Of a stretch of DNA of 64,000 nucleotides, positions 43,903 through 53,706 are shown in pieces. The translations under genes and the position numbers were made by a program. Source of the DNA: Litorihabitans aurantiacus. GTDB lineage: Bacteria > Actinomycetota > Actinomycetes > Actinomycetales > Beutenbergiaceae. Below the pieces are notes generated by a model. That model was not told the DNA's origin, did no database searches, and saw only the letters and a program-made list of their open reading frames with translations. The number at the start of each line of letters is the position of its first letter. Positions within the stretch are counted from its first letter, which is position 1. The stretch spans positions 1-64,000 of the forward strand of contig NZ_BSUM01000001.1 of NCBI RefSeq assembly GCF_030161595.1, in the 5' to 3' direction.

Positions 43903-44027
43903 GCTGCTGTGCCCGGTCTCGACATGTGAGAAGGATCGTGGCGCGACGACGAGGAGCGCCGCGGGTTCCTAGAGTGGCGCCATCCGCACCGGAGCTCCGG
44001 TGCTCACCGCGAGGAGAGGAGCAGGCC

Positions 44028-44964
44028 ATGACGACGACCGTCCCGCCGCTCCTGGTCCCCGCCCGCGGGTGTCGGTCCCTGTGTATGCACGGGCCCGACT
44101 CCGCCGTCGCCATCTGACGCCGGACGAGTCGGGCCTTCCCGCCCACACACGACTCGACCCGGAGCTCCCCGTGACCACCACCCTTCTCGCTCGTCCCGCC
44201 CGTCCGCTCGGCACGGTCCGCCTGACCCTGCCGGCGGGGGCGCGCCCCGTGCGGAGTCCCTCGGTCGCCGTCGGCGGCGCCCGGGGAGTCCCCTCCTCGT
44301 CGCCCGCGGTCGAGGTCCGCGCCGACCTCCCGTTCCCGGTTCTCGTGGCCCGCGCGCAGCAGGCCGAGCGCGACGGCACCCCGCTGCTGTGGCTCACGGG
44401 TGCCGGCGCTGCGGCCGTCGCGTCACGGCTGCTGCGCCTGACGCGGGTCCTCGCCGTCGGGGCAGAGCTCGACCTCGGCCAGGGCGCCCGCGGTGCGGCG
44501 CTCGACGCCGTCGCCCTCACCCAGATCGGTGGCGCGCGGGCGCACGTGCGGGTCGCCGACGCCAGGCTGCTGGGCGCCCTCGCGCGTGAGCTGGGGCTGC
44601 GTCCCCGGGCCCGTGCCACGCGGTTCGGCGGCGACGCGTTCACCGCCACGCTGCCGCCGGCGGGTCACCAGGAGGTGCAGGTGACCGCCGTCGTGACGCA
44701 CCAGGGCGACCTGGTCGCGGCGTTCCCGGTCGCGAGCACGGTGGTCGTGACCGCGCCGTCCGGGGTCGACGCTCACGTGCTGGTGCGCCGCGCGCGCGCC
44801 GCGGGGAGGGGTGGCCCGACGTCGCCGTCCACGTCGCGGTGCCCGCGGGTCAGCGTCCGGCCGCCTGGCCGCACGCGGACGGCCTGGTGCTGGCGGACGC
44901 GCCGGTAGCGGTGCCGGCGGCGTCGGCTGCTGCGGCGGGCGCTCCCGCCCGCCCCGCAGCCTGA
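44028..44964 (+). CDS. Hypothetical protein, 312 residues (two frameshifts)
   Basis: Not recognised. After correction at GGG 44067-44069 and GGGG 44803-44806 (one missing base each) a single 312-residue frame runs from ATG 44028, which has a strong GAGGAGAGGAGC site. The body is Ala/Arg/Val-rich with TLLARPARPLGTVRLTLPAG, an ALDAVALTQIGGARAHVRVA segment and a HADGLVLADAPVAVPAA end; no membrane helix. Alternative: a 29-codon Cys-containing upstream peptide from 44028 and a main gene from GTG 44171 (GGAG upstream). A TAGAGT hexamer near 43970 may be the promoter. Confidence 0.5.
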
Positions 44965-45298
44965 CCCGGCTGGAGATCGACCAGGCACGAGGATCCTCGC
45001 TCACCAGCTCGAGAATGCGTCTGGCTGCTCTACCGGCGCGATACAGCTCGCGTGCACATGGTCGCGGTCGGTTCGATCGCGAGGGGCCGCGCGAGCAGGC
45101 GGATGACTGCTGAATCGGTGGGACAGAGCAGTCGTACGCATGGTGGCGGCCCCGGGTGTCGCTCGAACGCACGCGTGCCTGCGTGAGCATGCAGGTAACT
45201 GCTCTGTCGCCGCGATTCAGCAGTCCTGCGCATTCTCGGCCCCGAGGGATCGTCACCCGGGCCCGGCCGATCGGCGGGCCGCGCGGCATCATGGGGGC
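44965..45298. other. Gene-free region carrying an inverted-repeat element
   Basis: 334 bp with no credible coding frame. It holds the repeat structure at 45010-45238 and a GCACGCGTGC palindrome (45169-45178). The oxidoreductase gene starts at the right edge. Confidence 0.6.
45010..45238. repeat. 229-bp element with outer and inner inverted repeats
   Basis: Ends are CGAGAATGCG (45010-45019) and its exact complement (45229-45238). Inside, 27-bp arms at 45106-45132 and 45198-45224 are inverted copies differing at four central positions; each arm itself begins ACTGCT and ends AGCAGT. The left end carries a third, diverged copy of the same unit. It could be a MITE-like remnant, a REP-type element or a structured RNA. 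Confidence 0.6.
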
Positions 45299-46342
45299 AT
45301 GAGCGAGCAGCGCAGCCTCCGCTGGGGAGTCCTGGGCCCCGGACGCATCGCCGCGGAGATCGCCCGGGACCTCGACCACGTCGCGCACGCCGAGATCGTC
45401 GCCGTCGGATCGCGGGACGAGGGCCGCGCCCGCGCGTTCGCCGCCGAGCACGCCCCGCGCGCCCGCGCCCACGGCTCCTACGCCGCGCTGCTCGCCGACG
45501 ACGAGGTCGACGTCGTCCACATCGCCACCCCGCACGCCCAGCACGCCCGCCACGCCTGCGCGGCGATCGCGGCGGGCCGCGGCGTCCTCGTCGAGAAGGC
45601 CTTCGCCGCGACCGCCGCCGGCGCGCACCGCGTGGCGGACGAGGCGCGCGCGGCCGGGACCTTCGCGATGGAGGCGATGTGGACGAGGTTCCTCCCCGCC
45701 GTCGTGCGCCTGCGCGACCTCGTGGCGGACGGCGCGATCGGCGAGGTCCGCGCCGTCACGAGCGAGATGGGCTGGCCGCTGCCGGGCTCGAGCGTCGACG
45801 ACGAGCCGGCCGCCGGCCGAGGCGCGCTCCTCGACCTCGCGGTCTACGGCATCTCCCTCGCGCAGATGCTGCTCGGTGCGCCCACGCAGGTGCGTGCGAC
45901 GGGGACGCTGACCGCGGGTGGCACGGACTCCCACGTGGGTGCGGTCGTCGGATTCGCGGGCGGGTCGACGGCGTCCGTGCTCGCCTCGCGCACGACACCG
46001 ATGCCCGGGGTGGCGAGGGTCTACGGCAGCCGCGGCTGGATCGACCTCGACGCGCCCTTCCACGGCACCGACGGTTTCGTGCTGCACCGCGACGGCGCAG
46101 ACCCGGTCCGCGAGCACCACCCCGCACGCGGGCGCGGGTACGCCCACGAGCTCGAGGAGGTCGCCGCGTGCGTGCGCGCCGGTCGCACCGAGTCGAGCGT
46201 GATGCCGCTCGCCGACACCCTCGCCGTGCAGGGTGTCCTGCAGGACGTCGCCGACCAGATCGGTCTGGTCCTCCGCGACGAGGACGACGACGGCGTCGCC
46301 TCCGCCCCCGACCATCCCGCCGACGCCCAGGAGACGCGATGA
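45299..46342 (+). CDS. Gfo/Idh/MocA-family oxidoreductase
   Basis: NAD(P)-dependent sugar or polyol dehydrogenase-type protein, 347 residues. The dinucleotide motif WGVLGPGRIAAEIARDL (residues ~9-25), the HIATPHAQHARHACAAI strand-helix and the family Lys in VLVEKAF are present. The C-terminal domain has EAMWTRFLPAVVRLR and a GALLDLAVYG helix, matching the trans-1,2-dihydrobenzene-diol/glucose-fructose-oxidoreductase-like group. The DNA ligase gene begins at ATG 46339, overlapping the stop (ATGA). Substrate not known. Confidence 0.9.
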   Translation: MSEQRSLRWGVLGPGRIAAEIARDLDHVAHAEIVAVGSRDEGRARAFAAEHAPRARAHGSYAALLADDEVDVVHIATPHAQHARHACAAIAAGRGVLVEKAFAATAAGAHRVADEARAAGTFAMEAMWTRFLPAVVRLRDLVADGAIGEVRAVTSEMGWPLPGSSVDDEPAAGRGALLDLAVYGISLAQMLLGAPTQVRATGTLTAGGTDSHVGAVVGFAGGSTASVLASRTTPMPGVARVYGSRGWIDLDAPFHGTDGFVLHRDGADPVREHHPARGRGYAHELEEVAACVRAGRTESSVMPLADTLAVQGVLQDVADQIGLVLRDEDDDGVASAPDHPADAQETR

Positions 46343-50205: not shown

Positions 50206-50636
50206 ATGGACGCACTCGACGCGCAGATCCTCACCGAGCTCACGGCCGACGGCCGCGCCACGTACGCGGCGGTGGGCGACGTCGTCGGGCTCTCCGCGCC
50301 GGCCGTGAAGCGGCGGGTGGACCGGATGCTCGACGACGGCGTTATCGGGCATTTCACCGCCGTCGTCGACCCCGCCGCGCTCGGGTGGGGGATCGAGGCG
50401 ATGATCGACGTCTGGTGCGCCGGGCGCATCTCCCCGGGGAGCTGCGCGCCGCGTGGGAGCCGATCAGCGAGGTGGTGCAGGCGAGCACGGTCGCGGGCGG
50501 GGCGGACGCGGTGCTGCGCGTGCGGGCGCGCGACGTCGCGCACCTCGAGGAGACGCTCGAGCGGATCCGGGAGTCGGCCGACATCGAGCGGACCGAGTCC
50601 ACGATCGTCCTCTCGCGCCTCATCGAGCGCGGCTGA
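50206..50636 (+). CDS. Lrp/AsnC-family regulator of arginine catabolism (frameshifted)
   Basis: 143 residues after correction. The winged HTH is LDAQILTELTADGRATYAAVGDVVGLSAPAVKRRVDRML (recognition helix SAPAVKRRV), followed by the RAM ligand domain with GWGIEAMIDVW and ADAVLRVRARDVAHLEE. The frame breaks in the CCCCGGGG run 50432-50439; one missing base restores SPGELRAAWEPISEVV. Divergent from ddaH-rocD, so it likely activates those genes in response to arginine or ornithine. Confidence 0.88.
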
Positions 50637-53358: not shown

Positions 53359-53706
53359 GGTGACCTCCGGTCGACGGCGGGGTGGAGGGCTCCAGCATCG
53401 CACCGCGCCCCACCTTCTTAACCGCGATCAAGTTCGTACGGGGTGGCCTGAACCCGGATCAAGAGGCGGTTTGGTGGGTGTCAGAGGCGCTCCTTAAGTT
53501 CGTGATGATATTCGGCGGCCCCGCAGGGGAGGCCGTCCGGATGTCGGGCGGTAACCGGCGGCCGGGTCCCTCACCTCCAGGGGCCCGGCCGTCTCGCTGC
53601 GCCCGGGGCGCGACCGGTCCACACCGCGACCGGTCCGCACGACGACGGCGCCGCACCCCGGGAGGAGCGGCGCCGTCGTGGTGCTGCTGCGCGGGACGCG
53701 CGTGTG
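53359..53706. other. Gene-free gap with lower-GC stretch and terminator
   Basis: 348 bp without a credible gene. 53420-53520 is relatively AT-rich; 53610-53636 has two GCGACCGGTCC copies 16 bp apart; the lpdA terminator lies at 53642-53679. Confidence 0.6.
53642..53679 (-). terminator. Terminator of lpdA
   Basis: 13-bp stem ACGACGGCGCCGC with a 12-nt loop, 28 bp past the lpdA stop. Confidence 0.75.

Follow-up and report, generated by a model that had tools for sequence, protein, structure and literature searches.

The window (the whole 64,000-nucleotide stretch of Litorihabitans aurantiacus DNA that was analyzed) carries, at positions 45010-45238, three direct tandem copies of one 55-bp imperfect palindrome, separated by spacers of 27 and 37 bp. 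The array and its flanks are laid out as follows.

44249..44908, + strand: upstream gene, from a home-made gene call; the ORF list starts the gene at 44000
44929..44960, no strand: weak short inverted repeat between the upstream gene and the array, with arms of 14 nt (79%)
45010..45064, no strand: unit 1, a 55-bp imperfect palindrome of type A (ATGC ends), right arm diverged
45065..45091, no strand: spacer 1, 27 bp; start-to-start distance 82
45092..45146, no strand: unit 2, a 55-bp imperfect palindrome
45147..45183, no strand: spacer 2, 37 bp; start-to-start distance 92
45184..45238, no strand: unit 3, a 55-bp imperfect palindrome whose right end is the consensus GCATTCTCG
45299..46342, + strand: downstream gene, a GFO/IDH/MocA oxidoreductase

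The upstream gene matched no Pfam family at E <= 1e-5; its orthologue in Serinibacter arcticus lies at L094:2343-2933 (78% over 158 amino acids). The oxidoreductase also has an orthologue there (64%), which again lies directly 3' of a unit. The inverted repeat at 44929..44960 has a hairpin score of 8, below the cut of 10 for a separate terminator.

The repeats described in the original prediction are all present. The 10-bp perfect inverted ends, CGAGAATGCG and CGCATTCTCG at 45010-45019 and 45229-45238, correspond to the outermost sequence of unit 1 on the left and of unit 3 on the right. The inverted arms of 27 bp (45106-45132 and 45198-45224), reverse complements at 24 of 27 positions and each dyad-ended with ACTGCT at the start and AGCAGT at the end, fall inside units 2 and 3 as their inner portions; a repeat search lengthens them to 41 nt at 83% (45092-45132 and 45198-45238). 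The third, diverged copy placed in the left end (45010-45047, 71%) is unit 1. What did not hold up is the nesting of these repeats within a single 229-bp element, as three direct tandem 55-bp palindromes describe the anatomy better.

This arrangement is not due to chance, since the three window units score E values of 2e-10 to 6e-9 in the genome (with a covariance model built from 32 copies, these three included) and the genome contains GCATTCTCG at 42 places (two of them in a repeated contig end), versus 0 for the reversed pattern. The units of the window fold weakly, at -14 to -22 kcal/mol, and the array is a rather diverged member of its family. The end of the contig repeats its start: window positions 43924-46324 correspond to C1:3643600-3646000, identical over the 2401 bases checked. 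This is likely an untrimmed circular overlap, of about 73 kb if it reaches the contig end, and the second perfect copy at C1:3644686 was therefore taken as the same locus.

Recurrence of the repeat, on which the case for a real element turned, was borne out: comparison of the 229-bp element with the host genome gave many partial copies. Two covariance models, the first built from 32 units and the second from 75, were run over this genome (G000) and two congeners (G001 and G002, the latter taken as S. arcticus K3-2), and units were matched in all three as well as in G007, which belongs to another genus. The 113 units kept comprise 61 from this genome, 33 from G002, 18 from G001, and 1 from G007; left out of the counts are three units of the repeated contig end, an 88-nt match in G007, and 1, 5, and 3 further matches in G000, G002, and G001, all nine with E above 1e-3. 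Searches of the literature, with partial coverage, found no description of this 55-bp repeat.

The length of the unit is exactly 55 bp in 102 of the 113 catalogued copies, and 52 to 56 bp in the remainder. Both arms carry a conserved outer block, CGA[G/C][A/C]A[T/C]GC, and an inner block, CTGCT/AGCAG; the consensus ends in CGAG at either side, followed outward by G (54%) and then C (69%). The units fall into two subtypes: type A has ATGC ends and, in many cases, ATCG close to the loop, and type B has ACGC ends; arm position 7 (T or C) sets the subtype, with a kappa of 0.92 between arms (150 arms). Over the same 150 arms, positions 1-3, 6, 8, 9, and 16-19 are strongly conserved, and departures at the conserved positions are not mirrored in the opposite arm (kappa -0.09 to 0.14); at positions 4-5 the states GA, GC, and CC predominate, and the state of one arm is nearly independent of that of the other. 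Such unmirrored departures and independent states fit what is expected of half-sites. Positions 10, 12-15, and 20-22 covary between arms (0.33-0.59), and covariation over the whole structure is 0.300 versus 0.157 when shuffled; none of 500 shuffles reached this value and all slid versions gave lower ones. Conserved half-sites and pairing are thus both present in the unit. The median RNA folding energy of the 113 units is -36.7 kcal/mol. In an Rfam scan of 5 loci two tRNAs reached their cut-off, and the other matches, miRNA-type hairpins and one plastid family, were sub-threshold; those drawn by the units were of the miRNA type.

The units form 67 clusters in the four genomes, of which 64 are clear of gene calls (made with a home-made codon model); the 3 that overlap a call were set aside. 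Of these 64, convergent gene pairs flank 39 and codirectional pairs flank 25, with none in a divergent gap; in the window, divergent gaps account for 25% of intergenic bases and convergent gaps for 3%. The median distance from gene end to cluster is 33 nt, with 72 of 103 gene ends within 60 nt. In codirectional gaps the 3' end of the upstream gene is the nearer one in 18 of 25 cases (Wilcoxon p 0.005), and convergent clusters have at least one gene end within 60 nt in 34 of 39 cases and both in 23. We scanned 50 proteins picked from genes adjoining the clusters, and 44 have a Pfam family. Many flanking genes are housekeeping genes, including those for PEP carboxykinase (PEPCK), 6PGD, aconitase, PDH E1, and IMPDH; others encode ribosomal proteins S20 and L9, HisRS, argininosuccinate synthase, CrgA, and ABC transporters. 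No regulatory theme was seen among the 50. We do not claim a bias toward the origin, from which the median distance is 0.61 Mb (KS p 0.057, with the origin position set by gene order). Two units 103 bp apart at L038:1141-1243 have a simple repeat of the GGCACC type between them.

Many of these loci are shared between species. For 18 of 28 clusters in this genome, a congener carries a unit next to the orthologue of a flanking gene, and in 12 of these both flanks match. The window array is among them: in S. arcticus the orthologues of its two flanking genes enclose a single unit of 54 bp. Orthologous units retain the conserved blocks, with a slight gain in likeness at variable positions (0.55, versus 0.46 for unrelated units; p 0.013), and in 15 orthologous unit pairs we counted 30 both-sided compensated changes, 19 one-sided changes that kept the pairing, and 26 broken pairs. 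The best reading is that the family is old and largely inherited by descent. The original prediction had taken conservation of the arms as selection on the repeat itself, and this gains support from the syntenic loci in congeners and from spacers that are mostly unrelated. At the 3' end of gnd, all three congeneric genomes carry type B units; G006 has a plain hairpin instead (L124; 32 nt, GAACGCC..GGCGTTC, with a similar outer stem), next to a gnd that is 89% identical. It is possible that the unit family originated from a terminator of this kind.

Beyond the genus the whole unit is rare. A search of 24 genomes of the family gave matches at E <= 0.001 in the three genomes of the genus and in G007. 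In the order, 6 of 396 genomes matched at E <= 1e-4 under strict filters, with 14 candidates scored per genome among the matches listed; the matches outside the family, G028 and G088, are hairpins without the motif, and of two weak extra-family matches, G029 and G031, the former lacks the motif on reading and the latter has its outer block. Whole-unit models gave no convincing copy elsewhere in the genomes searched. With filters this strict and so few candidates scored, relatives of the kind present in G031, a member of another family, can be missed. In the 200 kb sampled from G031 there are four 56-bp palindromes that share the outer block, with arms CGA[G/C]CATGC (one arm CGAGCATTC).

C1:867711 (L152:17711-17766), no strand given: 56-bp palindrome
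C1:868284 (L152:18284-18339), no strand given: 56-bp palindrome
C1:869451 (L152:19451-19506), no strand given: 56-bp palindrome
C1:1019830 (L158:19830-19885), no strand given: 56-bp palindrome

Their inside, GGCCCGTC..GACGGGCC, differs from that of the 55-bp unit, and each has a gene 3' end 10-30 nt away. The outer half-sites and the distance between them therefore reach further than the whole unit does, and confinement of the motif to one genus is ruled out. No 56-bp palindromes with the outer block were found in 100 kb each of G006 and G009. The strict motif is carried by 0 viral contigs; viral matches to the outer block alone numbered 6 for a length of 55 bp and 14 for 56 bp, with an inner pairing of 1-8 of 17, at chance level. 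We also considered an uptake signal and dropped the idea: 33 of the 42 copies of GCATTCTCG are inside units, and the other nine, when read, included no unit.

The spacing of neighboring units is narrowly distributed. Arrays hold 1 to 6 units, and 46 neighboring pairs lie within 300 bp of each other, 42 of them under 100 bp. All 42 close pairs have start-to-start distances of 71 (5 pairs), 72 (22), 82 (12), 83 (1), 91 (1), or 92 bp (1); the remaining four gaps, of 124, 128, 133, and 158 bp, have no common phase. Narrow spacing classes in steps of about one helical turn are read as helical phasing. Any helical period from 10.0 to 10.5 bp gives much the same fit, and a rough estimate puts at one in ten the chance that three lengths some 10 bp from each other would all come close to whole turns. 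The 10-bp step alone is thus modest evidence, and the stronger point is how narrow the classes are. The 82-bp class occurs in this genome only (12 of 12). Nine array pairs were compared between congeners, several of them paired through a single flanking gene. The spacing is one step apart (82 versus 72) in three pairs and the same to within 1 bp in four, and in two the partner is a single unit. Spacers are mostly unrelated, with mean identities of 0.34-0.39. In the array at 154359, three spacers of the 82-bp class are identical and two 17-bp spacers are 94% alike; a few other spacer pairs exceed the shuffled maximum (up to 0.76 at 17 bp and 0.67 at 27 bp). In the same array (L010:2360-2660, C1:154359-154659) an 82-bp segment made of unit and spacer is duplicated in tandem with the spacers identical, perfectly so at 154441-154577, which shows how arrays can grow. 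The identical units that we noted (154441/154523 and 843040/843131) are neighbors within one array.

Bacterial intergenic palindromes are usually explained as REPs spread by a transposase or as terminators. The main rival to the reading that we favor is that the units are bidirectional factor-independent terminators, in which a hairpin of up to 26 bp, transcribed from either strand, ends one or two genes, and the sequence is inherited or copied rather than read by a protein; on balance we regard this as somewhat unlikely. The units resemble such terminators in forming a stable hairpin between convergent genes at a short distance from the stop codon, and where convergent gene ends lie within 60 nt of a cluster, the unit may simply be the terminator. 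The location nearer the upstream 3' end in codirectional gaps, the median folding energy, the covariation above all 500 shuffles, the compensated changes between orthologous units, and the plain hairpin of G006 at gnd point the same way. However, no U-tract follows the hairpin (T makes up 6-17% of the next 12 nt, both sides pooled), and on the transcribed strand of 42 codirectional units G-U mismatches are no more common than A-C mismatches (53 each). Termination requires neither a conserved stem sequence nor a fixed tandem spacing, and the units of the window fold weakly. Moreover, several genes already have a strong separate hairpin in front of the unit, among them those for aconitase, PDH E1, ribosomal S20, L9, CrgA, and a DEAD-box helicase. 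Of 46 testable gaps from stop codon to unit, 16 contain a separate hairpin (score 10 or more), versus 0.8 expected by mononucleotide shuffling, and one of the 16 is itself unit-like; in the other 30 no other hairpin was found before the unit. The 46 are what is left of 103 gene-end gaps after exclusion of 53 under 35 nt and 4 over 420 nt. The aconitase hairpin is found 3' of the gene in G000, G002, G006, G007, and G009, and of these genomes G000 and G002 alone show units there as well. Template switching that corrects one arm against the other, or a role for DNA hairpins, could likewise produce covariation that favors neither strand. The 55 convergent units of three genomes have more G-U than A-C mismatches on the + strand (77:46, p 0.007). 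Strong hairpins of a second class share the outer stem (A)CGACGGC..GCCGTCG(T). They were noticed at window 53642-53679 and 50333-50366 and in L017, L147, and L148 after acn; genes of more than one genus are followed by them (window 53642, acn, PDH E1, and rpsT), and they are possibly an ordinary terminator type here. The hairpin at window 50333 lies between divergent gene calls, which misfits that assignment. An RNA with long-range pairing, another idea in the original prediction, is left unsupported, as each 55-mer forms its own hairpin and the transcribed strand has no G-U preference.

Of the known repeat types, REPs come closest. Like REPs, the units are extragenic palindromes dispersed in the genome, and as in proteobacterial REPs and BIMEs they form regular arrays. 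They differ in copy number (18-61 per genome in the three congeners) and in their spacing by 10-bp steps, in length, as REPs measure 20-40 bp (PMC3733652), and in tag, as the GTAG/GTGG or CGTC found at one end of a REP is absent from the symmetric ends of the 55-bp unit. Alternating orientation, as in a BIME, is meaningless for a full palindrome, in which it is the spacing that is regular. The REP-associated (RAYT) Y1 transposase domain, PF01797, gave 0 matches at E <= 1 in this 95% complete genome, against 10 of 14 control genomes positive. The REP-type label offered in the original prediction thus holds for dispersal, extragenic position, palindromy, and arrays, and fails for size, tag, and transposase. 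BIME-2 is reported to bind gyrase, inter-REP sequence IHF, and REPs DNA polymerase I, and REPs are reported to aid Rho-dependent termination (PMC2817692); the main texts of PMC3733652, PMC2817692, and PMC6006769, so far as they were accessible, do not mention Actinobacteria. The 55-bp repeat is a genuine and apparently undescribed family of a REP/BIME-like kind.

MITEs and ERIC-like elements are short non-coding intergenic palindromic repeats, and the unit is like them in kind, with no parent transposon known for it. That the units are a non-autonomous mobile element of the REP or MITE type, moved by a putative transposase, with old copies surviving vertically and the spacing arising as new copies are added beside old ones, would account for dispersed copies of one consensus, for arrays of 1 to 6 in three species (61, 33, and 18 units), and for the perfect tandem duplication. 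We nevertheless consider it improbable, and the MITE-like remnant of the original prediction is weakened with it: Y1_Tnp, the transposase family searched for, gave no match in the genome, no viral contig carries the strict motif, 18 of 28 clusters have a congener partner (12 on both flanks), and the identical units are neighbors within one array. Operator sites for a regulator of the neighboring genes would likewise be palindromic and phased, with conserved half-sites; this is highly improbable, however, given that none of the 64 clusters lies in a divergent gap and that the flanking genes scanned lack a regulatory theme and mostly have the units on their 3' side. The more specific proposal of an operator for the oxidoreductase-ligase operon is not supported, since the same unit lies at the 3' ends of unrelated genes and never between divergent ones in the 64 clusters.

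The reading that we favor, with the case for and against it about evenly balanced, is that the units are fixed-length 55-bp palindromic DNA boundary sites at the 3' ends of transcription units, REP/BIME-like in kind and bound as double-stranded DNA by a putative protein. The fixed length, the conserved blocks, the placement at 3' ends, the synteny, the spacing, and the outer block in G031 argue for it; the covarying positions 10, 12-15, and 20-22, which also fit RNA or single-strand hairpins, argue against it, as do the restriction of the 82-bp class to this genome, the four longer gaps with no shared phase, the convergent clusters close to gene ends, the 30 gaps in which the unit is the one hairpin found, and the lack of 56-bp outer-block palindromes in the samples of G006 and G009. 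A sequence-specific protein would read the outer half-sites, and neighboring complexes may touch on one face of the helix to form a boundary between transcription units. Our guess is that such a boundary could act by blocking polymerase, or by keeping a topoisomerase or nucleoid protein at the place where supercoils run into each other. Y1_Tnp was the one protein family searched as a candidate, and no binding protein was found. A fuller version of this proposal, speculative and in our view rather unlikely in all its parts, is that the putative protein reads pairs of the 9-bp half-site CGA[G/C][A/C]A[T/C]GC at the ends of 55-56-bp palindromes that lie 3' of transcription units. Where two to six sites stand in tandem, it would often bind them as oligomers aligned on one face, and it would serve between adjacent genes, most of them convergent, as a topological insulator or as a roadblock on double-stranded DNA; the half-site would be common to at least two families of the order, and the inside of the palindrome would be lineage specific.

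Here, a small family of palindromes resides in a genome with no detected Y1 transposase and stands beside orthologous genes of diverged species. What intergenic palindromes bind, and why they lie at gene ends, becomes a testable question in these organisms.
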